A DNA stretch of 64,000 bases from Pimelobacter simplex (GTDB lineage: Bacteria; Actinomycetota; Actinomycetes; Propionibacteriales; Nocardioidaceae), in assembly GCF_024662235.1 (NCBI RefSeq), contig NZ_CP096276.1, positions 3,906,001 through 3,970,000 on the forward strand, given 5' to 3'. A model generated the notes under the pieces. The model did not search any database. It saw nothing but the letters and a program-made list of their open reading frames with translations, and was not told the origin of the DNA. Made by a program: the position numbers and the translations under genes. Shown here piece after piece: positions 262 through 27,043 of this stretch (positions are counted from its first letter, which is position 1; each line of letters begins with the position of its first letter).

Positions 262-2100
262 TCAGCGCACGGTGCAGGACGAGCGCACGGTGGCGTTCGA
301 GCTGCCGGCGCTCGCACCCGGCGACATCTCCAGACGCGGGTCGCCCTCCTGGCCCTTGCCCGAGCGCAGCACCAGGTCGACGGTCTGGGACTTGCCCGGG
401 TCGAGCAGGACGCCGACGCTGGCGACCTTGCGGCCGGCGTACGACAGGACGGAGGGGTTGTTGACGCGCTGGCCGTCGACCGACATCTCCACGACCTCGC
501 CACCGACCGGCGTGCTGACGTAGACGACGAGGAGCTGCTGGCCCGGGTCGGTCCGGTTGCCCGGGAAGAACTCACCGGTGATGGTGTCGGGCAGCTCGTC
601 CGCGCCCGGCGGGGTGGCGTTGTCGAAGTTGATCGTGACGCCGAGGGTCTGCCGGCCGCCGGTGCAGCCGCGGGAGAAGAGCGAGGCGTTCTGGCGCAGG
701 TAGTACTGCATCTTCGTCGGGCCGGCGTCGTTGACGTAGATGCCCACCTCGGGATGGTCCGGGTCGCGGCCGACGAACTCGCCGGCGATCCGGGTGCCGG
801 CGATCTCGGCCTGGGCGGCGGGGTCGAAGAAGTGCATCCGGACCCGGCCCTCCTGGACGCCGCTCACGAGCCCGCGGACCAGGTCGGGCGCACTGCCCCG
901 GCCGTCGGCGAAGGCGTTGAAGACGCCCTTGGCGACGGCGTCCTGGTAGTCGCTCTGGCCCTGCGTGGTCGGGACGAGCGCGTAGACCTGGTTCTCGACG
1001 CGGGCGACCACGTCCTTGGCGGTCACCGGCGGGTAGCCGGCGACGGGGACCGCGCCGAGCGTGGCGAGGAGGTAGGACACGGCGACCGGGTCGACGTACA
1101 GGACGCCGTCGACGCGCTGCCCGGTCACCTGCTGCCAGCGGGCCCGGATGAGCTCGGAGGATCGGGGGATGTCGGGGGTCAGCGTCGCGTCGACGCCGGC
1201 GGTGCCGAGGATCTCGCCGAACAGCGCGCGCTCCTCGGAGGTCAGCGGCAGGATCGGCTTATCGCTCGCGCCGAGCGAGGCCATGTCGCGCTGGTCGACG
1301 ATCTCGACCTTGCCGCGGCTGGCGCGGACCAGCGAGAGCGAGCCCGGCAGGCCGCCGCTGCTGCGCGACTCGGCGTTGTTCTGGAGGACGAGCAGGTAGT
1401 TGCGCGGCTTGTCCTGGCCGAGCAGCACCGGGAGCAGCCGCGCCGCCCGGTACGTCGACCCGAGCGTGTCGCGCGCGTCGTCCACCAGCCCGCGGAGCGC
1501 GGTGAAGCGGGTCTGCACCGGCCCGATGAAGGCCGCCGAGTCCACCTCGCCGAGCCGCGTGCTCGCCGCGTCGAACGCGCGCTCGCTGCGCTGGGCCGGC
1601 TCCTCGAGCCCGGCGACCTGCTCGAGCGGGAAGACGTGTCCGGCCGGCTTGAACGTCTCGGCCGAGACCTGGTCGGCGGCGTCGATGACCGGAGGCAGGC
1701 CCTCCCGGCCGAGGTCGCGCAGCACCTCGGCGACGGTGGCGACGCCCTCGGCGTCGTCCCCCAGGACCGGCACGTGCTCGAAGACCCACCAGGTCGGCCC
1801 GCTCGTGCGGTCCGCGGCCGCGTCGGTCGCCCGCTGGTACGCGCGCAGCGCCTCCCGGGCCCCCTGGGCGTCCCCGCGCACCAGCGCCTCGCGCATCTCG
1901 CGCGCCTGGACCTCGGCGTCCTTGAGGTCGCGGGCGGTGCCGGTGAGCGCGAGCAGCGTCCACCCGAGTCCCACGAAGAGGACGAAACCCAGCGCGATCG
2001 CGATCGTCGCGCGAGGATGGTCCCGGCGGAAGCGACGTAGCTGACGGAGCGCCCGCCGCACGCCTCGAGATCGGCGCCGACGCCGGATCTCGGGCGACAT
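262..2100 (-). CDS. DUF4012 membrane-anchored protein
   Basis: 612 residues: a basic N-terminus (RRRRRSRG), one membrane helix at about residues 33-54 (TIAIALGFVLFVGLGWTLLA), then a large extracytoplasmic region. The segment NYLLVLQNNAESRSSGGLPG is the hallmark of DUF4012 proteins, which are common beside actinobacterial exopolysaccharide genes and have no proven biochemical role. The ATG at 2100 is preferred to the in-frame start at 2133 because a TAGTGT -10 box (2109-2114, minus strand) ends 8 nt before it, giving a leaderless transcript. It is divergent from the Wzz/kinase gene, which suggests a cell-surface polysaccharide role, but this is inference. Confidence 0.85.
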   Translation of the reverse strand: MSPEIRRRRRSRGVRRALRQLRRFRRDHPRATIAIALGFVLFVGLGWTLLALTGTARDLKDAEVQAREMREALVRGDAQGAREALRAYQRATDAAADRTSGPTWWVFEHVPVLGDDAEGVATVAEVLRDLGREGLPPVIDAADQVSAETFKPAGHVFPLEQVAGLEEPAQRSERAFDAASTRLGEVDSAAFIGPVQTRFTALRGLVDDARDTLGSTYRAARLLPVLLGQDKPRNYLLVLQNNAESRSSGGLPGSLSLVRASRGKVEIVDQRDMASLGASDKPILPLTSEERALFGEILGTAGVDATLTPDIPRSSELIRARWQQVTGQRVDGVLYVDPVAVSYLLATLGAVPVAGYPPVTAKDVVARVENQVYALVPTTQGQSDYQDAVAKGVFNAFADGRGSAPDLVRGLVSGVQEGRVRMHFFDPAAQAEIAGTRIAGEFVGRDPDHPEVGIYVNDAGPTKMQYYLRQNASLFSRGCTGGRQTLGVTINFDNATPPGADELPDTITGEFFPGNRTDPGQQLLVVYVSTPVGGEVVEMSVDGQRVNNPSVLSYAGRKVASVGVLLDPGKSQTVDLVLRSGKGQEGDPRLEMSPGASAGSSNATVRSSCTVR

Positions 2101-9079: not shown

Positions 9080-10132
9080 CTAGAGCGACCAGGTCGGGAA
9101 CGACTGACCGGTCAGCTCGCGCAACCGATCGACCTCCGGCTGCAGCTCGGCCCGCAACGCCGCCTCGACGGCGGGGCTGAGCTGCGGCCGCTCGATCTTC
9201 TCCCCCGTACGACGCCACGCGAGGTGCACCAGTCGCTGGGCGGCGGGCAGCCGCCGGACGGCGCGCACCAGCGGGCCGCGGCGCAGCGCCATCAGCCACG
9301 GCGGGAGCCCGCGCTTCTCCTCGGCGGTGTTGTAGCGGCCGTACTCCTCGGCGGTGAGCTCGGGACGGTCGAGGCCGAGGAAGTCGAAGACCCGGCCCAT
9401 CGTGCCGACCAGGTCGGCACCGAGGTCGGCGAGGTCCACGACGAGGACCCGGTCCCGCCCGAACCGCTCCAGGTACGCCGCCAGCTGGGTCCCGTAGCGG
9501 CTCGACGCCACGAGCGGGCTGGTCGGCTCGGCCGGGTCGGCGAGCTCCTCGTCCAGCGGGCGCTCGGCGGAGTTCCAGGCGACCATCTCGACGTGCTCGG
9601 CGATGATCCGGTCGACCGGGTCGCGCACGAGGTAGATGATCCGGGCGTCCGGCACCAGGTCGGCCATCCGGTCCACGACGCCCGGGTAGCAGGGGGTCTT
9701 GCTGTAGAACGGCGTCGACTCCAGGCGGTAGCGGGTGCCGGTGGCGAACCGCTCCTGGTAGGCGCCGATCCAGTCACGGCAGTCGGGGTCGGTGAAGAAG
9801 CGCATCTCCTTCTCCTCCGACGCCGCGACCTCGGGGTGCACCGCGAGGTAGTTGTGCATGCTCGTCGTGCCGGCCTTGGTCGCCCCGACGACGACGACAT
9901 TGGGCAGTCGTGCGGGATCGGGCGTGACCGGCGCCGGGTCGCCGCGGCGTACCCGGTTCCGGGCGGCGACCCGCACCGTGCAGTTCGGGCAGGCGTCGAC
10001 GGGTCCGCCGTCGGCCGCCAGGGTCCAGCCGGTACGACGCAGCCAGGCCGGACTGGCGATGGTCAGGACGGGCGGGACGCAGAGGTCGCACTGCATCGAG
10101 ACCCGGCCGTGGGCCAACGGGGTGAGGAGCAC
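9080..10132 (-). CDS. Zinc-ribbon sulfotransferase
   Basis: 350 residues. A short N-terminal region has two cysteine pairs, CDLC (about 15-18) and CPNC (about 48-51), that look like a zinc ribbon. The sulfotransferase domain follows: VVVVGATKAGTTSMHNYL is the 5'-phosphosulfate (PAPS) loop and YLVRDPVDRIIAEH the 3'-phosphate region. Such enzymes move sulfate from PAPS to a hydroxyl on a sugar or lipid. The GTG at 10132 lies 7 nt after a TATCCT box (10140-10145), so the transcript is probably leaderless. Its end meets the sugar O-methyltransferase tail to tail, 4 bp apart. Confidence 0.85.
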   Translation of the reverse strand: MLLTPLAHGRVSMQCDLCVPPVLTIASPAWLRRTGWTLAADGGPVDACPNCTVRVAARNRVRRGDPAPVTPDPARLPNVVVVGATKAGTTSMHNYLAVHPEVAASEEKEMRFFTDPDCRDWIGAYQERFATGTRYRLESTPFYSKTPCYPGVVDRMADLVPDARIIYLVRDPVDRIIAEHVEMVAWNSAERPLDEELADPAEPTSPLVASSRYGTQLAAYLERFGRDRVLVVDLADLGADLVGTMGRVFDFLGLDRPELTAEEYGRYNTAEEKRGLPPWLMALRRGPLVRAVRRLPAAQRLVHLAWRRTGEKIERPQLSPAVEAALRAELQPEVDRLRELTGQSFPTWSL

Positions 10133-10213: not shown

Positions 10214-10915
10214 GTGCGCCAGGCCCTGACAACCCTTGTCTTCCTGCTGCCTCCGAGCAAGCTGAAGAACCGGCTCCTGCGCCGGCTGGGACACGCGATC
10301 CCGGACACCGCGGTCGTCGGCATCAACCTCGTGCGTCGCGTGGACCGGTTCGAGCTGGGCGAGGGCTCCCTCATCCACCACTTCAACATGTTCCGCGACC
10401 TGCGCCTGGTCAAGCTCGGCGTCGGCTGCCGGATCATGCTGTTCAACCAGGTGGTCGGCGACTCGGGCTACGAGCCCGGCGCGCCCCCGACCGACGACCT
10501 GCGCACGCTGCGCATGGGCGACGACTCGCACATCATCAGCCAGCACTACCTCGACTGCGGCGGCGGGATCATCCTGGGCGACAACGCCTGGGTGACCGGC
10601 ATCCGCTCGACGCTGCTGTCCCACGCGTTCGACCCCACCAACGGCGGCGTCATCCTCGACCCGGTCACCATCGGCGACCGGGCGGTCATCGCGACGTCCT
10701 GCACGATGCTGCCCGGCACCGTCGTGGGCGAGGGCGCGCTGATCGCGGCCGGCTCGACCACCTGGACCGGCCAGGAGGCCAAGGGCGCCCACCTGCACGG
10801 CGGCGTACCGGCCCGCCGGCTCGCGCCGATCGACATTCCTCGCCACGTCTACGACCGAGCCCGTTACCAAGGACCCCGTGACGTCGTTGGGATCTCCGAA
10901 CCCCCATCTGAGTAG
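10214..10915 (+). CDS. Hexapeptide-repeat (LbH) acyltransferase
   Basis: 233 residues. Imperfect hexapeptide turns run from about residue 50 (FELGEGSLIHHF, RMGDDSHIISQH, ILGDNAWVTGIRST, TIGDRAVIATSCTMLPGTVVGEGALIAAG) and end in the VPARRLAPI closing motif, indicating a left-handed beta-helix O-acetyl/acyltransferase. The GTG lies 7 nt after TAGGCT (10201-10206), hence a leaderless start. It is followed after 8 bp by an acyl carrier protein gene and then a reductase gene, so an acyl-ACP donor is as plausible as acetyl-CoA; that is inference. Confidence 0.84.
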   Translation: MRQALTTLVFLLPPSKLKNRLLRRLGHAIPDTAVVGINLVRRVDRFELGEGSLIHHFNMFRDLRLVKLGVGCRIMLFNQVVGDSGYEPGAPPTDDLRTLRMGDDSHIISQHYLDCGGGIILGDNAWVTGIRSTLLSHAFDPTNGGVILDPVTIGDRAVIATSCTMLPGTVVGEGALIAAGSTTWTGQEAKGAHLHGGVPARRLAPIDIPRHVYDRARYQGPRDVVGISEPPSE

Positions 10916-10923
10916 AGGTCGGC

Positions 10924-11181
10924 ATGAACGAGATTGAGCCCAGGATCGTCACGATCGTCACCGAGCTGCTGGAGCGCTCGGACCGCGAGGACCAGACGGT
11001 CTCGCTCGGCGCCACGCTGCACGGCGACGACGGCCTCGGCCTGGACTCGCTCGAGACCGCCGAGCTGTCGGCGATCCTCGAGGACGAGTTCGGCACCGAC
11101 CCCTTCGGCGCGGGCCTGCTGCCCGAGACCGTCGCCGACATCGTCGCGTTCTACGCCGACGCCACCGCCGCGTCCGCATGA
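10924..11181 (+). CDS. Acyl carrier protein
   Basis: 85 residues, acidic and helical. GLGLDSLETAELSAIL holds the serine of the 4'-phosphopantetheine site (D-S-L), and the flanking helices fit the ACP four-helix bundle. It is not the housekeeping AcpP by context: no fab genes are nearby. The start ATG has a GAGG-type RBS, and the stop overlaps the next start by 4 bp (ATGA). It probably serves a dedicated acyl chain used in this glycan locus together with the adjacent reductase, ligase and acyltransferase. Confidence 0.88.
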   Translation: MNEIEPRIVTIVTELLERSDREDQTVSLGATLHGDDGLGLDSLETAELSAILEDEFGTDPFGAGLLPETVADIVAFYADATAASA

Positions 11182-11915
11182 CCGCTCCCCGCACGGTCAT
11201 CGTCACCGGCGGCAGTCGCGGGCTCGGCGAGGGGATCGTCCAGCACTTCCTCGACGCCGGTGACCGGGTGGCCACCTGTGCGCGCAGCGAGACCGACGCG
11301 GTCCGCGCGTGGCAGGCGAACCCGGCCTACGCCGACCGCTTCCTCTTCCGCAAGGCCGACCTGGCCGACCGGGAGCAGTCCACGCAGTTCGGCAAGGACG
11401 TCATCGCCGAGTGGAAGTCGGTCGACGTCCTCGTCAACAACGCCGGGGTGGCCCGGGACGGCATCCTCGCGCTGTTCAGCGACGACGACTCCGACACGGT
11501 CATCGACCTCAACCTCAAGGCGACGATCCACCTCACCAAGCAGATCGTGCGCAACATGCTGGCGCACGGCGGCGGCCGGATCGTCAACATCTCCTCGATC
11601 ACCGGGCTCACCGGCTACCGCGGGCTCAGCGTCTACGGCGCCACCAAGGCCGCGCTCGACGGCTTCACCCGCGGCCTGGCGCGCGAGCTCGGCTCGCGCA
11701 AGATCACCGTCAACAGCGTCGCCTCGGGCTACCTCAAGACCGAGATGAGCCACGGCCTCGACGACGACCAGCTCAACCAGATCGTCCGCCGTACGCCGGC
11801 CGGACGGCTCGGCGAGCCCGACGACATCGCCCGGGCGATCGCCTTCCTCGTCGACGAGCGCAACGACTGGATCACCGGTCAGGTGCTCGTCGTCGACGGC
11901 GGCCTCACCGCCTGA
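11178..11915 (+). CDS. FabG-like SDR, 3-oxoacyl-ACP reductase type
   Basis: 245 residues. NAD(P)-binding TGGSRGLGEG, the NNAG motif, catalytic serine in ISSITG, and YGATK supplying the Tyr and Lys of the classical SDR site are all present; the C-terminus ITGQVLVVDGGL is FabG-like. Translational coupling to the ACP gene suggests that the substrate is a 3-oxoacyl chain on that ACP, reduced to a 3-hydroxyacyl group. The last 11 bp overlap the end of the convergent acyltransferase gene. The substrate is inferred from context only. Confidence 0.87.
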   Translation: MTAPRTVIVTGGSRGLGEGIVQHFLDAGDRVATCARSETDAVRAWQANPAYADRFLFRKADLADREQSTQFGKDVIAEWKSVDVLVNNAGVARDGILALFSDDDSDTVIDLNLKATIHLTKQIVRNMLAHGGGRIVNISSITGLTGYRGLSVYGATKAALDGFTRGLARELGSRKITVNSVASGYLKTEMSHGLDDDQLNQIVRRTPAGRLGEPDDIARAIAFLVDERNDWITGQVLVVDGGLTA

Positions 11916-13170
11916 GGCTGTCCTCCTCCGCGCCGACCAGCGCGAGGTACTCGGCGACGAGTGCCTCGCGCTGCTCCGGCGCGACGCGGTTGTCGTCGGT
12001 CGCGAACGTGTGCATCAGCCGGCCCTTGTAGAACGTCAGCGCCAGGAACACGACCTGGTTGGGCGCGGCGACGAGCTGGCCGTGCAGGCTGCGCAGCCAC
12101 TCCGGGTCGGTGCCGGCGTCGACGACGCCCATGTTGCTCACCACGACGCACGGCGGCCCGGCGGCGAGTGCGGCCGCGATCCGGTCCCGCCCGACGGCGA
12201 GCTCGGAGACCGCGTCGAGCCGGGTGAGGTGGAAGAACAGGTCGCCCTCGCCGCGGCCGAGCGCCTCGACGATGCCGGCCTTGACCTCGGCGGCGAGTGC
12301 CCAGCGATCGGCGACCTCGACCCGGAACGGCCGGGAGAGCACGGCGATCGCCATCGCCTGCGCGAGCGCCGGGTCGCTCGGCGGTGCGCCGAGGTCGGCC
12401 GGCGCGGCGAGCTGGAGCGTGGTGTCGCCGCCGGCGAGGACGTGCGCGGTGCTGGTCAGGAGCGCCGAGACCACGTTGGCGAACGGGTTGGCGCCGTGCG
12501 CCCGTCCGTCGGCGACGATCCGGGCCGAGGTCTCCGGGCCCATCTCGACGTGGCGCAGCCAGGAGCGGCGCGGGACCGTGGCGTCCGGCCAGTCCGCCGG
12601 TCCGGGCGGACCGAAGGCGGCGTTGCGGGTCTTGATCTCGCGCAGCAGGTCGATCATCGCGGCCCGGCTCTGCTGCCACGGGTGGGTGGTCGCCGGCGCG
12701 GGCGGCTCGGAGAGCTGCTGCTGCTCGGGAACGTCCTGGCCGTCGAGCATCCGCACGAACCACTGGAGCTCGGTGATCCCGATCCGGCCGTCGATGACGG
12801 AGTGGTGACCGTTGAAGATCACCCGGGAGCGGCCCTCGCCGGGGCTGGTCACGTAGTGGCAGCGCAGCGGTACGCCGAGCGGACAGGCCGTGTCGCCCTC
12901 CTCCTCGAACACCCGGTCCCACGCGCTCACCGGCAGCTCGTCGCTGCGGAAGACGTCGTGGTCGAGACCGACGTCGGCGATGGTGAGGTCCTCGGTCGCG
13001 GCCGAGCGCGCGAGCACCCGGCGGGCGCGGAAGGCGTCCCACGTGCGTCGTACGTCGTCGGGGTCGAAGCAGCGGTCGAGATCGGCCGAGATCATGGAGG
13101 TGCTCGGCCAGGCCTGGTCGAGGAAGGTGTAGTACTTCTCCGCGACCGTCATCGGACGATGGGCACCCAC
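11905..13170 (-). CDS. Condensation-domain-like (HHxxxDG) acyltransferase
   Basis: 421 residues. The motif NGHHSVIDGR (HHxxxDG) is the catalytic signature of the chloramphenicol acetyltransferase/NRPS condensation superfamily, which includes mycobacterial Pap acyltransferases that esterify sugars or diols. Further features are the PADLGAPPSDPALAQ segment and a VVVSNMGVVDAG stretch resembling the latch region of the family. The GTG at 13170 has GGAG five nt upstream; the ATG at 13152 is an alternative. With the ACP, reductase and ligase around it, it is a candidate for placing an acyl chain on the glycan. Confidence 0.78.
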   Translation of the reverse strand: MGAHRPMTVAEKYYTFLDQAWPSTSMISADLDRCFDPDDVRRTWDAFRARRVLARSAATEDLTIADVGLDHDVFRSDELPVSAWDRVFEEEGDTACPLGVPLRCHYVTSPGEGRSRVIFNGHHSVIDGRIGITELQWFVRMLDGQDVPEQQQLSEPPAPATTHPWQQSRAAMIDLLREIKTRNAAFGPPGPADWPDATVPRRSWLRHVEMGPETSARIVADGRAHGANPFANVVSALLTSTAHVLAGGDTTLQLAAPADLGAPPSDPALAQAMAIAVLSRPFRVEVADRWALAAEVKAGIVEALGRGEGDLFFHLTRLDAVSELAVGRDRIAAALAAGPPCVVVSNMGVVDAGTDPEWLRSLHGQLVAAPNQVVFLALTFYKGRLMHTFATDDNRVAPEQREALVAEYLALVGAEEDSLRR

Positions 13171-13288
13171 GCGCACTCCAGCCTCTCGGGACACAGGACG
13201 ATCCTGCCCCCTGCCAACGCTTCGACCGCCCTCCGGGTGACGCATGCGCCATACTCGCCCCGGACTTTCTGCGAAAGGATCGACACCG

Positions 13289-14674
13289 ATGATCGGGTTG
13301 CTGGAGAAGGCCGCCGCCGAACGGCCGGCGCAGGTCGCGGTCGTCACCCCCGAGGCCACGCTGACCTACGGCGAGCTGCTCGACGGCGCCCGCCAGGTCG
13401 CCGGAGCCCTCGCCGAGCGCGGCATCGAGCGGTTCGCGGTGCTCGAGCCCGACGCCGGCTGGGTGCTGCGCCTGCTCGCCGGTGCGGCGGCCGTGGGCAG
13501 CGAGCCGTGCCAGTACCAGCCCGACCTCGACGCCGCTCAGTTCGCCGAGCAGGCGGCCGCGCTCGGGCACACCATCGTGGTCACGCGGCGTACCGACCTG
13601 CCGGCGGGGTTCACCGTGCTGCGGCCCGACACCCTCGGCGCACCGTACGACGGCGGCCCGGTCGCCGAGGGCGCCCCGCAGCCCGTGATGATCCGCACGA
13701 CCGGCACCACCGGGCTGCCCAAGGCAGCCCGCCACGACTGGGCGGTGCTCGCCCGGCGCGCCGGCACCGCGCGGCCGCACCCCGAGGAGCGCTGGCTGCT
13801 GGCCTACGGACCCCAGCAGTTCGCGGGGATCCAGGTGCTGCTGCACGTGCTGGCGGTGCAGGCGACGCTGGTCGCGCCGTTCCCGCGCCAGCCCCGCGAC
13901 GGCCTGGCCGCGCTCGTCGAGCAGGACGTGACCTGCGTCAGCGCCACCCCGACGTACTGGCGCTTCCTGCTGGCCGAGGCCCGCAGCGCCAAGGCCGCGC
14001 TCCCCCGGCTCACCCAGATCACCCTCGGCGGCGAGGCGAGCCCGCCCGACCTGCTCGCCGAGCTCCAGGACGCCTTCCCCGACGCGCGGATCTCGCAGGT
14101 CTACGCCTCCACGGAGTTCGGCTCGATCGCCTCGGTGCGCGACGGCCGTCCCGGTCTGTCGGCCACCAGCCTGTGGGGGCCCGACAACCCGGAGGGCCTG
14201 CTCAAGGTCGAGGACGGCGAGCTGCTCGTCCGGGCCGGCACCGGGATGCTCGGCTACGCCGGCGACGCGGCCGAGTCGCCGCGCGAGGCCGACGGCTGGG
14301 TGGCCACCGGCGACCTGGTCGAGGTGGTCGAGGACCGGGTCCTCTTCCGCGGCCGCTCGTCCGAGGTGATCAACGTCGGCGGCGTCAAGGTCCACCCGCT
14401 GCCGATCGAGGAGCGGGTCGCCGCCGTGCCCGGGGTCCAGGTGGCCCGCGTCCACGGCCGCGCCAACCCGATGGTCGGCGCCGTCGTCGCCGTCGAGGTC
14501 GCGCTCACCGACGAGGGCCGCGCCGACGAGAGCGCCGTCAAGGCCGCCATCCGCAGCGCGTGCGCGGACCTCCCCCGCGCCTGGCAGCCACGCAGCATCA
14601 AGGTCGTCGCCGAGGCCGAGCTGGCCGCGGCGACCAAGGGCGGCAAGACGGTACGGGCTACTTCACCGGAGTGA
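13289..14674 (+). CDS. AMP-forming acyl ligase (ANL superfamily)
   Basis: 461 residues, short for the ANL family but with its core motifs: MIRTTGTTGLPKAARHD (P-loop), VYASTEFGSIASV (A5), GWVATGDLVEV (A7), FRGRSSEVINVGGVKVHP (A8) and a C-terminal KGGKTVR that supplies the A10 lysine. It activates a carboxylic acid as acyl-AMP and passes it to CoA or a carrier protein. The ATG at 13289 has AAAGGA upstream. Being divergent from the acyltransferase and close to the ACP gene suggests ACP loading. The final 17 bp overlap the flippase gene tail to tail. Confidence 0.84.
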   Translation: MIGLLEKAAAERPAQVAVVTPEATLTYGELLDGARQVAGALAERGIERFAVLEPDAGWVLRLLAGAAAVGSEPCQYQPDLDAAQFAEQAAALGHTIVVTRRTDLPAGFTVLRPDTLGAPYDGGPVAEGAPQPVMIRTTGTTGLPKAARHDWAVLARRAGTARPHPEERWLLAYGPQQFAGIQVLLHVLAVQATLVAPFPRQPRDGLAALVEQDVTCVSATPTYWRFLLAEARSAKAALPRLTQITLGGEASPPDLLAELQDAFPDARISQVYASTEFGSIASVRDGRPGLSATSLWGPDNPEGLLKVEDGELLVRAGTGMLGYAGDAAESPREADGWVATGDLVEVVEDRVLFRGRSSEVINVGGVKVHPLPIEERVAAVPGVQVARVHGRANPMVGAVVAVEVALTDEGRADESAVKAAIRSACADLPRAWQPRSIKVVAEAELAAATKGGKTVRATSPE

Positions 14675-15968
14675 GGCGGTGCCGGCCGGGCTTGGCCGGC
14701 ACGGGCTTCGGCTCCGGCCGCGGCGCCGCGGCGGCCGGCTGGGGCACCTCGGGCAGCGGCCCGCGGCCCTTCCACACCACCGCGATCCACCAGCACACGG
14801 TGGAGACGCCGGTGCCGACGGCCATCGCCCACAGGGCGCCCTCGGCGTCGCCCCAGGCGGCGCCGATGACCATGCAGACGCCGACCAGGACGATCGAGAC
14901 GATGTCGGTGACCATCGCGGTCTGGATCCGGTGGGTGCCGATGAGCGAGGCGCGCAGACCGCTCTGGGCCGCCATGAGCAGCACCTTGAGACTGAGCGCG
15001 AGCATGAGCGGCTGGACGATGTCCCAGGCGTCGCCGAGCACCGCGTGACCGATCACGTCGGGCAGGAAGACCAGCACGACGAGGTTGAGGACGCCGACGA
15101 CGGTGGCGATCGTGATCGCGCGCCGCACGTGCCCCCAGACCAGGCGCGGGTCCTCGCGGTCGCGGGCGATGTCGGCGGCGGCCGACGTACCGACCGCCAT
15201 CTGGACGGCGGTGCTCGGGGCGCCGAGCAGGGTCGCGGCCCGGAAGGCGGCCACCGCGATGGGGCTGCTGAACAGCGCCATGAGCGAGGCGGTGGCGAGC
15301 GCCGTACCGCTGGCGGCGAGCCCGCTGACCATCGAGCGCCACGAGAAGTCCCAGCGCTGGCGCAGCCAGTCGCGGCCCCCGCCCGTGGGCGCGCCGTTCT
15401 GGACGAAGACCCACAGCGACGCGATCACGCCGGAGCCGACCCACGCCGCGACCAGCCAGGTCAGCGAGTCGAGGTCGAGCGCGCCGGCACCGACGAAGCC
15501 GACCGCGAGCAGCACGAACCACAGCGAGTCGAGCACGACGGCGCCGCCCGGGCGCTGCCGGGCGATCGCGAGGTAGCGGCCCACGTCGTGGAGCACGAGG
15601 AACGGCAGCGACAGGCCGAAGACCAGGATCGGTCCGCCCAGCGCGCTGCCGCTCGCGAGCAGCGCGGCACCGCTCGCCACCGTGACGGCCGCGGCCAGGA
15701 CGCCGAGCTGGAGGGTCGCGCTGAGGATGGCGCCGGGGCGGGCGTCCGCGTCGTCGGGGTGGACCAGCGCGGTCGTCGAGATCAGGCTGCGGAAGACCAC
15801 CTGGGCGACCGTGTAGACCATGACGACCAGGCTGTAGCGGCCGAAGTCGGCCGGGCCGAACGCGTGGGCCACCCAGATCAGCGCCGCGATGTTGGACAGG
15901 CTGGAGAGGATCTGGTCGACGGTGACCAGGCTGAGCCGGCGGCCCGCCGAGGCGACGGGCGCGGTCAT
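14658..15968 (-). CDS. Polysaccharide flippase (Wzx-like, MOP superfamily)
   Basis: 436 residues with about 12 hydrophobic helices and the N-terminal pattern DQILSSLSNIAALIWVAHAF plus GPADFGRYSLVVMVYTVAQV, typical of Wzx/RfbX-type oligosaccharide flippases. A proline- and basic-rich cytoplasmic tail (PQPAAAAPRPEPKPVPAKPG) ends the protein. It would move the lipid-linked repeat unit across the membrane. The start ATG has a strong AGGAGG five nt upstream, unlike the many leaderless neighbours. It is the only clear flippase in the window. Confidence 0.87.
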   Translation of the reverse strand: MTAPVASAGRRLSLVTVDQILSSLSNIAALIWVAHAFGPADFGRYSLVVMVYTVAQVVFRSLISTTALVHPDDADARPGAILSATLQLGVLAAAVTVASGAALLASGSALGGPILVFGLSLPFLVLHDVGRYLAIARQRPGGAVVLDSLWFVLLAVGFVGAGALDLDSLTWLVAAWVGSGVIASLWVFVQNGAPTGGGRDWLRQRWDFSWRSMVSGLAASGTALATASLMALFSSPIAVAAFRAATLLGAPSTAVQMAVGTSAAADIARDREDPRLVWGHVRRAITIATVVGVLNLVVLVFLPDVIGHAVLGDAWDIVQPLMLALSLKVLLMAAQSGLRASLIGTHRIQTAMVTDIVSIVLVGVCMVIGAAWGDAEGALWAMAVGTGVSTVCWWIAVVWKGRGPLPEVPQPAAAAPRPEPKPVPAKPGRHRLTPVK

Positions 15969-16099: not shown

Positions 16100-17089
16100 G
16101 TGACCACCGTGGCTCTCAGCTCCGTCCTGCACAAAGCACAGGGCTCTGTGCGGGTGCAGCGCCAGCTCAGCAAAGTCCGCCGGCTCCGCAGCCGGCTCGT
16201 CAACGTCCCCCTCCAGCAGGTCGAGCACGCCCGCCGCCGGCTCGAGACCGAGGACGTCGATGTCCTGCTGCTGGGCGACAGCTCGACCCTGTGCTGGTCG
16301 CTTCGCGACACCGACCGCACGCTGCTGCCGGCCATGCTCGGCCAGCGGCTCGGCAATGTCGTCCCCCTCGCGGGGCCCGGCTTCGGCGCGGGGATCTACA
16401 GCGAGGCCACCCGGATCCTGTCCTCGATGGAGCGCCGCCCCAAGGCCGTCGTCTTCACGCTCGCGCTGCGCACCAGCACCGCCACCCACATCGTGGCCGA
16501 CCCGATCACCGGCTACCACCGCTCGCTCGCCGCGATGGCCAAGGTGCCCGGTGCCCGCCGCAAGGTCCGGTACGTCGGCCGCGGCGGCGCATTCGCCACC
16601 GACGAGGAGCGCGACACCTTCCTGGCCCAGCCCGTCGACAGCCGCTGGAGCGGCCGGCGCACCATCGGCTGGTACCGCGAGCAGCTCGTCGGCACCGGCC
16701 TCCCGCCGTGGCCCATCGAGCTCGAGAAGCTCCGCTTCGACTACTTCTACGGCGAGCAGCTGCGCGCCGACAACCCCGGCCTGGCGCGCCTCACCGAGCT
16801 CGCCCGCCACCTCGCGTCCTACGGCGTACCGACCGTCGGTGTGTGGACCCGGCCCCCGATGCAGCGCGGCGAGATGCACTTCCCCGGCGAGTTCGAGGCG
16901 CACGTGCGCTCCCACAAGGAGCTGCAGGACCAGGCGATCCTCCGGGGCTCGGCCGCGATCGGGCCGATGCTCGACATCCACCTGGAGGACGAGGACTTCG
17001 AGGACAGCTTCAACGCCACCGAGCACTTCGCCTTCTCGGGCCGCACCAAGGTCGCCGACGCGATCGCCGACGCGGTGCGCGCGCGGTGA
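16100..17089 (+). CDS. SGNH/GDSL hydrolase-like protein (first of two)
   Basis: 329 residues. DVDVLLLGDSSTLCWSL carries a block-I-like GDS motif, and IYSEATRILSSM, VVFTLALRTSTAT and the late TEHFAFSGRTKVAD (H-x-x-x-S-G, block-V-like) fit an SGNH fold. The function in glycan loci is often O-acetyl transfer or removal. The N-terminus is basic and there is no clear signal peptide. GTG at 16100 is used; the GTG at 16109 lies 7 nt after a CATCGT box and may be the true leaderless start. It is followed after 7 bp by a second GDS-motif protein. Confidence 0.66.
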   Translation: MTTVALSSVLHKAQGSVRVQRQLSKVRRLRSRLVNVPLQQVEHARRRLETEDVDVLLLGDSSTLCWSLRDTDRTLLPAMLGQRLGNVVPLAGPGFGAGIYSEATRILSSMERRPKAVVFTLALRTSTATHIVADPITGYHRSLAAMAKVPGARRKVRYVGRGGAFATDEERDTFLAQPVDSRWSGRRTIGWYREQLVGTGLPPWPIELEKLRFDYFYGEQLRADNPGLARLTELARHLASYGVPTVGVWTRPPMQRGEMHFPGEFEAHVRSHKELQDQAILRGSAAIGPMLDIHLEDEDFEDSFNATEHFAFSGRTKVADAIADAVRAR

Positions 17090-17096
17090 ACGCCTC

Positions 17097-17840
17097 ATGA
17101 GCCCCGCGTCGTTCCGCGCCTTCGTGCGGATGCGCCGGGCCCGGCTGCGCGGCTGGCTCGCGCTGCTCCGGCTGCTGGTGACCGCCGCCCGCGGCCAGGT
17201 CGACGAGATCTGGGTGGGCGACTCCCACTCGGTCACGTTCAACACCGAGCACTCCCCCTTGCCGGGCATCCTCCGCACCGGCGAGCGCCGCTGGACCTGG
17301 CACCTCGGTCCGCGGGTCATGTTCTCCATCGCCCGCGACGGCTTTCCGCCCACCCTGCTGCGGGTCGCGCGCCTGATCGCGCGGGTGCGCGGCGCCCGCG
17401 AGGCCGAGTGGTACTTCTCCTTCGGCGAGATCGACATCCGCTGCCACCTCGCCCCGCGCCTGGCCCAGGGCGGCGACGTCGGCTTCGTCGCGACGTACGC
17501 CGACCGCGTGCACGACCTGCTCGGCCGGCTCGGCGCGGACCACGGCACGCTCGTCGTACCGGTGCCGCCGTGCCTGGACAGCTACGACCACGCGGCCTTC
17601 CCGGTCGCGGGCACACCCGAGGAGCGGCTCGCCGCCCACCGGTCCGTGCGATCGGCGCTCGTCGTCGCCGTCGGCGCCGCACCGGCCCACCCGCAGCTGC
17701 GCCTGCTCGACCTCACCGACGCCCTGGCCGGGCCTTCGGGCCTGATGCGCGACGAGCTCACCGACGACGGGTGCCACACCAACGCCGCCGGCCGCGACGT
17801 CGTACGGCGGGCGGTGGCGGCGCTCGTCCAGACGCCCTAG
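17097..17840 (+). CDS. SGNH-like protein (second of two)
   Basis: 247 residues. DEIWVGDSHSVTFNTEHSPL contains a GDSHS block-I-like motif and the late DELTDDGCHTNAAGRDVVRR a D-x-x-H block, both as in SGNH hydrolases or glycan O-acyltransferase catalytic domains. It is not closely similar to its neighbour at 16100-17089, so this is not a recent duplication. An N-terminal basic hydrophobic segment (RGWLALLRLLVTAARG) could associate with the membrane. The stop overlaps the FkbM gene on the other strand by 4 bp. Confidence 0.6.
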   Translation: MSPASFRAFVRMRRARLRGWLALLRLLVTAARGQVDEIWVGDSHSVTFNTEHSPLPGILRTGERRWTWHLGPRVMFSIARDGFPPTLLRVARLIARVRGAREAEWYFSFGEIDIRCHLAPRLAQGGDVGFVATYADRVHDLLGRLGADHGTLVVPVPPCLDSYDHAAFPVAGTPEERLAAHRSVRSALVVAVGAAPAHPQLRLLDLTDALAGPSGLMRDELTDDGCHTNAAGRDVVRRAVAALVQTP

Positions 17841-19868: not shown

Positions 19869-20861
19869 TCAGTCGAGCTCGCGCTTGTGCTGGACCAGCC
19901 GGCCCAGGTGCTCGATGTCGGCGTCGACCATGAGCTCGGCGAGCGCCTTGGCGTCGGTGTCGGCCTTCCAGCCGAGGACGTCGCGCGCCTTGGTCGCGTC
20001 GCCGATGAGGGCGTCGACCTCGGTCGGGCGCTCGTAGGACTTGTCGTAGCGGACGTGGTCCTCCCAGTCGAGGCCCGCGTGCGCGAAGGCGTACTGGCAG
20101 AACTCGCGCACGGTCGTGCCGATGCCGGTGGCGAGGACGTAGTCCTGCGGGTCGTCCTGCTGGAGCATCCGCCACATGCCCTCGACGTACTCGGGCGCGT
20201 AGCCCCAGTCGCGCACGGCCTCGAGGTTGCCGAGGTCGAGGTGGTCGCTGATGCCGAGCTTGATCGAGGCGACGCCGAGCGTGATCTTGCGGGTCACGAA
20301 GCTCTCACCGCGCCGGGGCGACTCGTGGTTGAAGAGGATGCCGGAGACGGCGAACAGGTCGTAGGCCTCGCGGTAGTTGACCGTCACCCAGTGCGAGTAG
20401 AGCTTGGCCGCGCCGTAGGGCGAACGCGGGTAGAACACCGTGTTCTCGCTCTGCGGCGGCGGGGTCGCGCCGAACATCTCCGACGTCGACGCCTGGTAGA
20501 ACCGGCAGTCGATCTTGGCCGCCCGGATCGCCTCGAGCAGGCGCAGGGTGCCCACGGCGTCGGTCGACGCGGTGTACTCCGGCAGCTCGAAGGAGACCTT
20601 GACGTGGCTCTGGGCGCCGAGGTTGTAGACCTCGTGCGGAGCGATGTCGCGGATCTGGTTGCCCAGGCTGACGCCGTCGGTCAGGTCGCCGTAGTGCAGG
20701 TGGAGGCCCGACGTGCCGTGCAGGTGGTCGATCCGGCTGCGGTTCAGGGTCGATGAACGACGGACCAGCCCGTGGACCTCGTAGCCCTTCCCGAGCAGGA
20801 GCTCGGCGAGGTAAGAGCCGTCCTGACCGGTGATCCCGGTGATGAGTGCGCGCTTGGTCAC
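19869..20861 (-). CDS. gmd: GDP-mannose 4,6-dehydratase
   Basis: 330 residues, close to the usual length. [19 protein letters not shown] (NADP site), [12 protein letters not shown] with the Thr-Ser-Glu catalytic triplet, [14 protein letters not shown] with the Tyr and Lys, and [16 protein letters not shown] are near-diagnostic for Gmd. The product GDP-4-keto-6-deoxy-D-mannose feeds GDP-fucose, GDP-rhamnose and related sugars. The GTG lies 6 nt after TACTGT (20868-20873). This box overlaps the -10 box of the divergent glycosyltransferase gene, so the two promoters are back to back. Confidence 0.95.
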
Positions 20862-20867
20862 GGGGGC

Positions 20868-20877
20868 ACAGTATCGT
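20868..20877. promoter_or_regulatory. Bidirectional leaderless promoter with overlapping -10 boxes (gmd / glycosyltransferase)
   Basis: On the minus strand TACTGT (20873-20868) precedes the gmd GTG by 6 nt. On the plus strand TATCGT (20872-20877) precedes the glycosyltransferase GTG by 8 nt. The two hexamers share two base pairs and only 24 bp separate the start codons, so each -35 region must lie inside the other gene. Confidence 0.6.
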
Positions 20878-20885
20878 CGCGCCTC

Positions 20886-21962
20886 GTGCATCTGGTCGTA
20901 GATTCCGTAGTCGTTCGCACCGGAAGCGTGACGATCGTGCTCGAACACCTCGTCCGCGCCTGGGCCGAGGCCTTCCCCGGCGACCGGATCTCGGTGCTCT
21001 TCGGACCCGAGGGGCAGACCTTCCCGCTGCCCGAGGGCGCGCACGCCGAGGTGCTCACCCAGCCCGGCGGTCCGCTCGGCGGCCTGTGGCTGCGCTCGGT
21101 GGCCGTACGACGGGCCGCGAGCCGCCTCGGCGCCGACGCCGTGCTGGCGGCCGTGCCGGCCAGCGGCCTGCTGGGCGCGCGCAGCCCGCGCGGGGTGATC
21201 CTCTACGACCTGCGCTTCGAGCTGCGGCCCGAGCAGTTCAGCCGCAAGACCCGCATCGCGCGCAAGGTCTCGTGGCTGTGGAGCATGCGCCTGGCCGACC
21301 GGATCTTCACGATCTCCGACCGCACGCTGCACGACCTGCGCGACCTGCACCCCTCGCTGAGCGGCCGCGCCGAGACGGCCGCGCTCGGCTCCGACCACGC
21401 GCTCGCCTGGCCGCACCCCGCCACGGTCGAGGCTGACCACCCCTACGCGATCGCGTTCGGGCACTACGGCAACAAGAACGCCAACGCGGTCATCGACGGC
21501 TGGGCGCGGTTCTGCGCCGAGCACGCCGACCAGGCCGACGGCTGGCGGCTGCGCCTGGTCGGCATGGGCGCGCAGGACCGCGCCGCCGCCGAGGAGCAGG
21601 TACGCCGCCTGGGCGTCGGCGAGCGCATCGAGCTCATGCCCTGGCTGGACGACGACGCCTTCGCGCGCGCCTTCGCCGGTGCGGGGCTGGTGGTGTTCCC
21701 CTCCGACTTCGAGGGCTTCGGCCTGCCCGCGGCCGAGGCGATCCGGCTGGGCATCCCGGCCGTGGTCTCGACCGACCCGGCGCTGGCCGAGGTGACCGGC
21801 GGGCACGCCGTCGTCGCCGCCTCGACCACGCCGGCCGACCTGGCCGAGGGATTCGCCGCGGCGCTGGCCCGCACGCCCGAGCAGCTGGCCGCGGGCCAGG
21901 CGTTCGCGGAGGCGTTCACCTGGCGTCGTACGGCCGAGGTGATCCGAACCGGTCTCTCCTGA
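20886..21962 (+). CDS. Group 1 (GT4) glycosyltransferase
   Basis: 358 residues. The C-terminal half carries [39 protein letters not shown], shown here as one region, with the GT4 signature [10 protein letters not shown] and the preceding nucleotide-sugar contacts. The N-terminal half starts [20 protein letters not shown] and contains [20 protein letters not shown], typical of a retaining GT-B enzyme. The GTG lies 8 nt after TATCGT. It shares its control region with gmd, so it may use a Gmd-derived sugar; that is inference. Confidence 0.86.
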
Positions 21963-26212: not shown

Positions 26213-26329
26213 CGTGATCGGAAAAGCCTCACAAAGTTGTGGTGAGACTCGTATCTCATTCGTGACTCGCTCGTTGAGGTGTTCGCGGGACGGCCTCATC
26301 CCGCAACCGGGGACGAGTGGAGGTTGCGC

Positions 26330-27043
26330 GTGAAGAAGCGGGCGTTCGACGTCGTGGTCATCTGCCTGGCCGCTGTGGTGTGGGTACCTGTGGTGCTCAT
26401 GGCCGCACTGGCCGTGCTGGTGCTCTCCGGCCGTCCGATCTACTACCGTTCGCGGCGCTGGGTCGGTCCCGGCACCGCCATCGAGATGGTCAAGCTGCGG
26501 GTCATGGTGCCCAATGCCAACAAGGTGGTCGCTCCGGTCGAGGCCGGTCGCTTCCTCAACACTCCGCCGGACTCGCCGCTCTACACCCCCATCGGGCGGG
26601 TGCTGGACCGGCTGGGTCTCAACGAGATCCCTCAGTTCGTCCACGTGCTGCGCGGCGAGATGAGCATCGTCGGCGCCCGTCCGCTCACGGACGTGGTGCG
26701 CGACGCGCTCACCGAGCAGCACGGCGACATCGACACCCGCTGGGAGACCCCGGCCGGCCTGACCGGTCTCCCCCAGCTCATCGGCCGCCACGACATCGAC
26801 GACCACCAGCGCCTGGTGCTCGAGTCGGCCTACTCCATGCGCACCGCGCGCGACGCGAGCATCCGGCTGGACTTCAAGATCCTGCTCTTCACGGTGCTCA
26901 TCACCTTCGGCCTCAAGCAGCCGATGACGTTCGAGGGCGCGCTCCAGCTCGCCCAGCCGCGCCCCCGCCGCCAGCGGGTGCACACCCCTGACCTCGCGCA
27001 GCCGCTCTACGGAGCCGCCGCGCCGGAGGCCGACGTCGCCTGA
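26330..27043 (+). CDS. Initiating sugar-phosphate (undecaprenyl-phosphate) transferase
   Basis: 237 residues, the short single-helix form of the bacterial sugar transferase family. MKKRAFDVVVICLAAVVWVP leads into the membrane helix. A Ser/Arg-rich YYRSRRWVG, MVKLRVM, LNEIPQFVHVLRGEMSIVGARP and PAGLTGLPQL follow. It would place the first sugar phosphate on undecaprenyl phosphate, starting the repeat unit. The GTG at 26330 has GGAGG six nt upstream; starts further upstream have no RBS. The usual KFRSM motif reads KLRVM here, a small deviation. Confidence 0.88.
   Translation: MKKRAFDVVVICLAAVVWVPVVLMAALAVLVLSGRPIYYRSRRWVGPGTAIEMVKLRVMVPNANKVVAPVEAGRFLNTPPDSPLYTPIGRVLDRLGLNEIPQFVHVLRGEMSIVGARPLTDVVRDALTEQHGDIDTRWETPAGLTGLPQLIGRHDIDDHQRLVLESAYSMRTARDASIRLDFKILLFTVLITFGLKQPMTFEGALQLAQPRPRRQRVHTPDLAQPLYGAAAPEADVA

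Follow-up and report, generated by a model that had tools for sequence, protein, structure and literature searches.

A cassette of ligase, MupS-type reductase and acyl carrier protein in an exopolysaccharide locus of Pimelobacter simplex, proposed to serve glycan acylation

In a 64,000-nucleotide stretch of the Pimelobacter simplex genome (the window), genes for an acyl carrier protein (ACP), an AMP-forming ligase (LIG) and an SDR reductase (FABG) of the MupS family were found in an exopolysaccharide (EPS) locus, and these three genes form the conserved core of an acyl cassette present in several phyla. On balance we think it probable that the cassette makes a short hydroxyacyl-ACP without a ketosynthase and feeds it into glycan acylation; we infer the substrate, product, acceptor and transfer step.

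Gene layout and surroundings

Open reading frames and Pfam matches confirmed all five genes of the original prediction at the positions it gave (Table 1). A gap of 8 bp lies between HEX and ACP, and the ACP stop and FABG start share 4 bp; a single HEX-ACP-FABG transcript is plausible from this spacing. A sigma-70 and terminator consensus scan gave no match. PAP and FABG converge, overlapping by 11 bp, and PAP and LIG diverge, with 136 bp between them.

The surroundings are an EPS locus. The Pfam scan covered 30 distinct window proteins, nearly all from positions 265-33065, and detected GT2, GT4 and GT61 glycosyltransferases, an initiating sugar transferase, a sulfotransferase, two GDP-mannose 4,6-dehydratase-family proteins and an AAA_31 protein whose Wzc-type (GNVR) match was sub-threshold; one Wzy and one Wzx match were sub-threshold as well. 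The sulfotransferase, whose family is found in 16 of 41 Nocardioidaceae loci, is likely another glycan decoration enzyme.

Table 1. Cassette genes and selected neighbors in the window
Feature	Position	Strand	Evidence
HEX, hexapeptide acyltransferase	10214-10915	+	GTG start; PF00132 29.6 bits, cut-off 27
ACP, acyl carrier protein	10924-11181	+	PF00550 22.1 bits, cut-off 20.8; motif GLDSLE
FABG, SDR reductase	11178-11915	+	PF13561 195.7 bits
PAP, PapA-like/condensation-superfamily acyltransferase	11905-13152	-	PF16911 31.8 bits, cut-off 30; HHSVIDG
LIG, AMP/adenylate-forming ligase	13289-14674	+	PF00501 93.1 bits
SULF, sulfotransferase adjoining HEX	9080-10132	-	PF13469/PF00685
WZX-like flippase of polysaccharide locus	14658-15968	-	PF13440 20.5 bits, below cut-off 23
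Two small surface-locus proteins	16148-17840	+	First without Pfam match; second weak GDSL-hydrolase PF13472, 22.3 bits, cut-off 32.9
GDP-mannose 4,6-dehydratase, glycan context	19869-20948	-	PF16363 431.8 bits
Initiating sugar transferase of EPS locus	26279-27043	+	PF02397

Conservation of the cassette

Among 118 distinct loci picked by ligase similarity (six plasmid loci by ligase or SDR), 106 from several phyla carry both an ACP and an SDR gene within 4 kb of the ligase gene, mostly in the order ACP-LIG-SDR. Such a grouping is not due to chance, and three genes, those for the AMP ligase, the ACP and the reductase, make up the conserved core. Plasmid pTML1 has its ligase, SDR and ACP genes next to one another. 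Separation of the genes in other genomes had been named as evidence against the cassette; instead, ACP, ligase and reductase are kept together. This part of the prediction is supported: dedicated ACP, activating ligase, reductase and an acyltransferase make up one conserved unit in polysaccharide loci. In Nocardioidaceae, and in many proteobacterial loci among those viewed, the cassette is accompanied by hexapeptide-type genes, glycosyltransferases, flippase-like genes or flagellin. The Bradyrhizobium and Burkholderia relatives adjoin polyketide synthase-like genes.

Relationship of FABG, LIG and ACP to the mupirocin and thiomarinol proteins

FABG falls inside the MupS/TmlS clade (100/99) in a tree of 40 cassette reductases, including the window protein, TmlS and MupS, and outside the pair formed by the own-genome FabG-like protein L160 and 2nm0. 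The rows were hand-picked, with the long-branched cassette reductases L078, L079 and L080 left out, and the outgroup of 16 rows contains 13 distinct proteins, namely one FabG from the PDB and 12 proteins of the window's genome. In the PDB, the FABG profile matched MupS best (4yxf, 246.2 bits; next 214.2), as did the single sequence (188.8 bits; next 172), and FABG is 46% identical to TmlS. A mup-type reductase profile scored the window FABG at 267.4 bits, own-genome SDRs at 187.4 or less and FabG at 184.6, although the weakest cassette SDR (168.5 bits) lies below the best own-genome SDR. Arg205 is present in 40/40 cassette SDRs and in 1/16 outgroup rows. With TIGR01830 (FabG), FABG reached 226.9 bits (cut-off 297.75), and the best match in the genome, 294.8 bits, is likewise under the cut-off. 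Strong sequence kinship to the mup/tml reductases argues that FABG is a MupS-family SDR, and assignment as a housekeeping FabG was rejected on the tree.

Sequence kinship of LIG to the mup/tml ligases appears weaker. In a tree of hand-picked rows with an outgroup from one genome, 41 cassette ligases including TmlQ were separated from 20 own-genome rows (19 distinct) at 100/99, and the window ligase clade is a deep sister of the TmlQ-type clade. LIG shows 30% identity to TmlQ over 314 aligned columns. A Nocardioidaceae LIG profile scored four mup-type ligases at 174.7-198.3 bits and the 20 own-genome rows at 98.5 or less. In the reverse test the window LIG (156.4 bits) was barely above the best own-genome ligase (139.8 bits), and some Nocardioidaceae ligases (127.6 bits) and other cassette ligases (to 78.5 bits) fell under it. 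A closer, unsampled reductase or ligase family is possible, since the outgroups of both trees come almost wholly from one genome.

The LIG model (pLDDT 89.6) matches the CBL/MenE fold, and among structures the LIG profile scored CBL at 121.4 bits and DltA-type enzymes at 72.8 or less. LIG was rejected as an exosortase-A acyl-CoA ligase (TIGR03098, 71.3 bits, cut-off 592.35), and it is only weakly similar to the 2-oxoglutaryl-ACP ligase AmcH (81.6 bits, cut-off 370). The Dlt D-alanylation system uses the MBOAT protein DltB; a Dlt system was rejected on the low DltA-type scores and on the lack of an MBOAT among the 30 Pfam-scanned window proteins.

Ser42 of the ACP DSL motif is identical in 36/36 aligned sequences. 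The window ACP is not the housekeeping ACP, because it scores 25.4 bits on TIGR00517 (cut-off 70.45). It is 85 aa long without the C-terminal extension of TacpD-type carriers, whereas the ACPs in tml and PKS loci have 111-120 aa.

Proposed pathway

In the reading that we favor, LIG would adenylate a short acid and load it onto the dedicated ACP. The simplest substrate would be malonyl-CoA or succinyl-CoA, adenylated at its free carboxylate, as in mupirocin and thiomarinol. FABG would then reduce the opposite end to the alcohol and so yield 3-hydroxypropionyl-, 4-hydroxybutyryl- or a similar short hydroxyacyl-ACP. HEX would move the hydroxyacyl unit to an EPS sugar hydroxyl as an ester before WZX export, so that the acyl group would end on the glycan, and PAP would be an additional, exchangeable acyltransferase whose substrate is probably the same unit. 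For the glycan-locus copies examined here, neither biochemistry nor a glycan structure was found.

The model for the first steps is the mupirocin starter cassette: in the available part of PMC10098928, MupQ, MupS and MacpD, encoded by adjacent genes, convert malonyl-CoA to 3-hydroxypropionyl-ACP without a ketosynthase. The window cassette shares with MupQ-MupS-MacpD and TmlQ-TmlS-TacpD a co-located adenylating enzyme, SDR and discrete ACP, the reductase clade and, if our reading is right, a first unit made without a ketosynthase. It differs in its more distant ligase, in its shorter ACP and in PAP, which separates the ligase gene from ACP and FABG (10924-14674). The antibiotic unit primes a PKS ketosynthase, whose place in the window is taken by an EPS locus with a hexapeptide acyltransferase.

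Transfer step and the exchangeable position

HEX, a hexapeptide acyltransferase of the left-handed beta-helix type, is the proposed transferase of the hydroxyacyl group. Its family occurs in 17/41 Nocardioidaceae loci, and a hexapeptide-type gene of any kind (HEX, HEX7 or HEX40) in 40/41; the four HEX40 members scanned all match PF00132 below its cut-off only. Outside Nocardioidaceae, 22 of 66 loci have a hexapeptide-type gene near the cassette. The best NCBIfam match of HEX is WcaF-type, far under the cut-off. HEX might also have no link to the ACP and simply act as a common O-acetyltransferase. One DegT aminotransferase query found no match in the 41 Nocardioidaceae stretches, which makes a hydroxyl group the likelier acceptor compared with an amino sugar.

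PapA5 receives its chains from a PKS carrier, and PAP rather than HEX could move the ACP-bound acyl group to the glycan in the same way. PAP has a fitting HHxxxDG motif and a marginal PF16911 score, its profile matches 8s6l and PapA5 (1q9j), and a low-confidence PAP model matched the same folds. We nevertheless find this alternative doubtful: PAP is an optional member of the five genes, found in 12/41 Nocardioidaceae loci with a second PapA-like protein (PAP2) in 3 more (15/41). A methyltransferase or CatB-like protein takes its place in 24/41 loci, while the hexapeptide-type gene is nearly constant. Because of this restricted distribution PAP is probably not the core transferase.

At the variable position, 39/41 loci have exactly one protein, which is either a methyltransferase, CatB-like or one of the two PapA-like kinds; no locus has two, and the ligase tree shows at least seven changes, losses counted. 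These proteins may cap the new hydroxyl. As a speculative extension, in which we place little confidence, the locus would be a modular surface-glycan 'acyl printer': a mupirocin-type core would make an omega-hydroxyacyl unit, a methyl (MT11), acetyl (CatB/Vat-like HEX33) or longer acyl (PAP/PAP2) cap would be added, and the hexapeptide transferase would put the capped unit on the EPS. If so, a swap of the cap gene would alter surface chemistry between related strains, and one variable gene would predict a strain's cap.

Ketosynthase and alternative acyl chemistry

As the original prediction stated, there is no ketosynthase among the 30 distinct window proteins (Pfam), and a KAS III profile run over the genes called in the 41 stretches from Nocardioidaceae had 0 matches. 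The accompanying view that elongation would need an outside enzyme would fall away in our favored reading: with a MupS-type reductase instead of a 3-oxo FabG the missing ketosynthase is no gap, since mupirocin 3-hydroxypropionyl-ACP is made without one (PMC10098928, available part). Of the 66 loci outside Nocardioidaceae, 28 contain a KAS III, almost all of these from Azospirillaceae, and the seven KAS III sequences read have an intact Cys-His-Asn; 16/66 have neither a KAS III nor a hexapeptide match. In the KAS III-bearing loci the SDR might act on a 3-oxoacyl chain.

For the window, we consider a second scheme unlikely: LIG would activate a fatty acid or a free 3-oxo acid, FABG would serve as the 3-ketoacyl-ACP reductase (e.g., from acetoacetyl- to 3-hydroxybutyryl-ACP), and the glycan would receive a 3-hydroxyacyl group. 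The SDR fold and FabG-type similarity of FABG and the intact KAS III beside the cassette in Azospirillaceae/Herbaspirillum loci are consistent with this scheme, as are the N-linked 3-hydroxybutanoyl groups reported for several bacterial polysaccharides (PMC8074265, in the part available). However, it needs an outside source of free 3-oxo acid, and no ketosynthase was seen among the window proteins scanned. Since FABG groups with MupS/TmlS and outside the FabG rows, the 3-oxo reduction originally predicted is not the reading that fits best.

It is less likely still that LIG loads a ready-made amino, hydroxy or fatty acid which FABG oxidizes or reduces while it is ACP-bound, leading to a different product such as a lipid or small natural product in an incidental EPS setting, since this agrees with the polyketide synthase-like neighbors in Bradyrhizobium and Burkholderia and the weak AmcH similarity but not with the glycan or flagellin genes beside the cassette elsewhere, nor with the absence of PKS/NRPS matches among the 30 window proteins scanned.

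Comparison with other glycan loci

The wbeL gene of Vibrio cholerae is presumably of ligase type. Tetronate reduction in V. cholerae is carried out by a LuxC-type reductase and an iron alcohol dehydrogenase, not a MupS-type SDR; both are absent from the 30 Pfam-scanned window proteins, and a tetronate pathway of this type was rejected. The original prediction called a dedicated carrier for glycan acylation unusual, which is too strong in view of two precedents. Flagellin glycosylation islands of Enterobacteriaceae encode acyl carrier proteins, CaiC ligases and FabG (PMC4875605), and by these gene descriptions they resemble the window in combining a dedicated ACP with an AMP ligase and an SDR inside a glycan cluster; they also have LuxC/LuxE genes, and the available text of this source assigns the proteins merely to fatty acid synthesis. 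V. cholerae O1 has its own tetronate genes VC0248-VC0252 (wbe/rfb), including wbeL (471 aa), so that a glycan locus itself supplies the short hydroxylated acyl group that is put on a sugar, the acceptor there being the amino group of perosamine (PMC3441752, available portion).

If our favored reading is true, the chemistry of two antibiotics would be a widespread ketosynthase-free route to unusual acyl decorations of polysaccharides and flagellin glycans, and labels such as 'FabG' and 'fatty acid-CoA ligase' would need correction in these loci. It would also offer a genetic explanation, open to testing, for decorations like the N-(4-hydroxybutanoyl) group of the Idiomarina abyssalis O-polysaccharide, which is named in a title cited by PMC7281560, PMC8707391 and PMC8074265.

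Organization and conservation of the cassette

The window cassette is a real, conserved system with a predicted chemistry. The five genes that the original prediction placed side by side were found at 10214 to 14674 by ORF coordinates and Pfam matches, as listed in the table. A gap of 8 bp separates HEX from ACP, and the ACP and FABG genes share 4 bp, which makes co-transcription of HEX-ACP-FABG plausible; a promoter and terminator scan of the window cassette gave no result. The flanks form an exopolysaccharide (EPS) locus with glycosyltransferases, an initiating sugar transferase, two GDP-mannose 4,6-dehydratase-family proteins, methyltransferases (including FkbM), a sulfotransferase and proteins matching Wzc-, Wzx- and Wzy-type profiles, all of these last below threshold. 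As originally predicted, Pfam scans of 30 distinct window proteins, nearly all of them from 265 to 33065, showed no ketosynthase. The sulfotransferase gene is the neighbour of HEX; an Idiomarina O-polysaccharide sugar carrying sulfate plus 4-hydroxybutanoyl is reported in a title cited in PMC7281560, PMC8707391 and PMC8074265. ACP as the housekeeping ACP was rejected on profile score.

Features of the cassette and its surroundings in the window
Feature	Position	Strand	Description
DUF4012 protein	265-2061		at edge of EPS locus
Sulfotransferase	9080-10132		adjoins HEX
HEX (hexapeptide acyltransferase)	10214-10915	+	Pfam hexapeptide protein
ACP (acyl carrier protein)	10924-11181	+	Pfam phosphopantetheine carrier
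FABG (SDR reductase)	11178-11915	+	Pfam SDR
PAP (PapA-like)	11905-13152	-	Pfam PapA C-terminal match, 31.8 bits, barely above cut-off 30
LIG (AMP ligase)	13289-14674	+	Pfam AMP-binding enzyme

The 130 loci examined gave 118 distinct ones after removal of a short window copy and 11 duplicates. In 106 of the 118, an ACP gene and an SDR gene are both found no more than 4 kb from LIG; no ACP was found in seven, no SDR in three and neither in two, and at least two of these misses touch a contig end (L097 and L146). LIG similarity was the basis for picking the loci, with SDR similarity as an alternative for the six plasmid ones; the association with ACP and SDR is thus largely not built in. The predicted gene neighborhood was borne out for ACP, LIG and SDR; PAP is optional, occurring in only 12 of 41 Nocardioidaceae loci. 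The commonest gene order is ACP-LIG-SDR on a single strand; the window-type order is HEX-ACP-SDR-(PAP)-LIG. No ACP was found in the Nitrospirillum loci L098 to L102, and in L098 to L101 an ORF of 675 to 764 aa upstream of the ligase may hold or replace it. One short contig of a Jatrophihabitans MAG (L129) has two ACP and two ligase genes.

A LIG search of the family gave some match in all 294 genomes and matches below 1e-100 in 52, own genome included. The 41 Nocardioidaceae loci are the window plus stretches, none longer than 20 kb, from 40 of the other 51 genomes at that level; the family label rests on named copies of some (Nocardioides, Aeromicrobium, Pimelobacter). Of the relatives with a name, Pimelobacter simplex ATCC 6946 is the closest, its LIG being 91% identical; L159 and L031 both denote its locus. 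Few close copies exist across the phylum: a match at E<=1e-50 was obtained in 4 of 296 genomes, counting the window's own. A scan of named genomes turned up 165 relatives, from which 79 distinct loci were retained, and six plasmid records were added by hand selection on LIG or SDR similarity. The named-genome loci come from Azospirillaceae, sphingomonads, Rhodobacteraceae, Herbaspirillum and a marine gammaproteobacterium among the proteobacteria, and further from Bryobacterales, Fimbriimonas, planctomycete and myxococcal MAGs and Actinomycetota.

Relationship of the reductase and ligase to the mupirocin and thiomarinol enzymes

FABG is, by sequence, MupS-like (MupS is the reductase of the mupirocin ligase-reductase-ACP set MupQ-MupS-MacpD). 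MupS (4yxf) was the best PDB match of both the FABG profile (246.2 bits; next 214.2) and the single sequence (188.8 bits; next 172), and FABG is 46% identical to TmlS, its counterpart on the thiomarinol plasmid. Maximum-likelihood analysis placed 40 cassette reductases, among them MupS and TmlS, in a single clade with support of 100/99 (ultrafast bootstrap/SH-aLRT); cas_L078, cas_L079 and cas_L080 are omitted. The 16 outgroup rows represent 13 distinct proteins, a PDB FabG and 12 proteins of the genome that carries the window. Among the own-genome rows, own_w60575 and own_L173 are the same gene, and L161, L162 and L164 are identical, the L164 stretch containing the L162 gene. Ten alignment columns separate the cassette reductases, for example Arg205 (40/40 vs 1/16 outgroup rows). 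A mup-type reductase profile scored the window FABG at 267.4 bits, own-genome SDRs at no more than 187.4 and the weakest cassette reductase at 168.5. The assignment of FABG as a FabG was rejected on the tree placement and on a FabG-model score of 226.9 bits, below the cut-off of 297.75; the tree is the stronger evidence, since the genome's best match (294.8) also falls just short. The own-genome SDR stretches C1:634522-635253 and C1:4834693-4835424 have identical scores and tree rows, so this gene seems to be present twice.

By similar comparisons, the tie of LIG to the mup/tml systems is weaker than that of the reductase. In a tree sampled from cassette and own-genome ligases, with characterised ACP ligases outside the sample, 41 cassette ligases including TmlQ (thiomarinol) stand opposite 20 own-genome rows (19 distinct) with 100/99 support; TmlQ, two PKS-associated relatives and one actinobacterial ligase form a deep sister group. 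A Nocardioidaceae LIG profile gave 174.7 to 198.3 bits for TmlQ and the other three, and at most 98.5 for own-genome ligases. With the reverse, mup-type profile the window LIG scored 156.4 bits and the top own-genome ligase 139.8; scores of the other Nocardioidaceae ligases began at 127.6, and those of the other cassette ligases fell as low as 78.5. LIG shares 30% identity with TmlQ across 314 aligned columns. Its predicted structure (pLDDT 89.6) matches 4-chlorobenzoyl-CoA ligase and MenE folds; these matches do not fix the substrate or the carrier. A Dlt-like ligase was rejected on profile comparison, an exosortase-A ligase on profile score, and a role in defence on the lack of a PADLOC hit. 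The ligase of a Haematobacter massiliensis plasmid (L075, 8137-10014) has a long low-complexity, repeat-like insert.

Proposed chemistry and precedents

Passages of PMC10098928 have MupQ, MupS and MacpD convert malonyl-CoA to 3-hydroxypropionyl-ACP, place the three-gene mup/tml cassette next to a ketosynthase gene and give the thiomarinol starter as 4-hydroxybutanoyl. We infer that this chemistry applies to the window cassette, where it would account for a reductase and a ligase without a ketosynthase. Walker et al. in 2020, a study that PMC10098928 cites on this cassette, reportedly described a bis-CoA/ACP thioester and conversion of succinyl-CoA to 4-HB, with truncated MacpD still active.

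There are precedents for glycan loci that supply their own acyl groups: Enterobacteriaceae flagellin glycosylation islands encode Acp, CaiC, FabG, LuxC and LuxE (PMC4875605), and in V. cholerae O1 perosamine is acylated with tetronate, VC0248-VC0252 (including wbeL) being assigned to tetronate synthesis (PMC3441752). Among the titles and abstract openings listed in literature searches, which covered few subscription journals, none described such a cassette as a source of hydroxyacyl groups for polysaccharides. The combination of a MupS-type core, a hexapeptide transferase and partners that can be swapped was likewise not seen there.

Candidate transferases and exchangeable genes

HEX is the candidate for transfer of the acyl unit to EPS. 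In 40 of the 41 Nocardioidaceae loci, a member of one of three hexapeptide-type families is encoded within two genes of the core. Among the members scanned, the window HEX and HEX7 (another such family) of L046 and L057 exceed the Pfam cut-off; HEX of L063 (16.4 bits) and all four HEX40 proteins, a further family (17.0 to 24.1 bits), match below it. The KAS III profile had no match in the called genes of these 41 stretches. Near the core of 66 other loci, any of four hexapeptide profiles was found in 22, KAS III in 28, both in none and neither in 16. Because almost all KAS III loci belong to a single family, only a few events may underlie this exclusivity. Reading the Azospirillum KAS III as an acyltransferase like CerJ was not supported: in all seven Azospirillaceae and Herbaspirillum sequences compared by eye with FabH motifs, the Cys-His-Asn triad looks intact; an eighth sequence (L121) is distant from its cassette. 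In Azospirillum L072 (5548-13940) the cassette and KAS III lie between a pseudaminic acid synthase gene and flagellin, L081 to L092 and L094 are similar, and the Azospirillum KAS III loci mostly also have an alpha/beta hydrolase. No homologue of the L075 DegT aminotransferase (one query) was found in the 41 Nocardioidaceae stretches, which favours an O-ester on a neutral sugar over an amide.

One exchangeable gene usually accompanies the core in these 41 loci: MT11 (a SAM methyltransferase, present for example in Aeromicrobium loci) in 18, PAP in 12, HEX33 (CatB/Vat-like) in six, PAP2 in three, none in two (L062 and L065) and never two at once. Scanned MT11 and PAP2 members exceed Pfam cut-offs; the best model for HEX33 is CatB at 110.8 bits, below the cut-off of 350. 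On the ligase tree of 41 rows, the state of this gene, with "none" counted, needs at least seven changes. Each kind could act on a hydroxyl, and we hypothesize that MT11, PAP, PAP2 and HEX33 cap the new one. A "slot" for the gene is a functional guess, since its place differs with architecture, the flanking pair being SDR and LIG in some loci and HEX7 and ACP in others. The predicted PAP structure, from five sequences, matches 8s6l, PapA5 and NRPS condensation domains, which is only supportive given the low model confidence (pLDDT 58.6). In the marine gammaproteobacterium HTCC2148 (L156, 7587-8969 and neighbours), the ligase and reductase group with actinobacterial ones, the reductase with support of only 80/33, and an MT11-type methyltransferase gene lies beside them, which suggests horizontal transfer.
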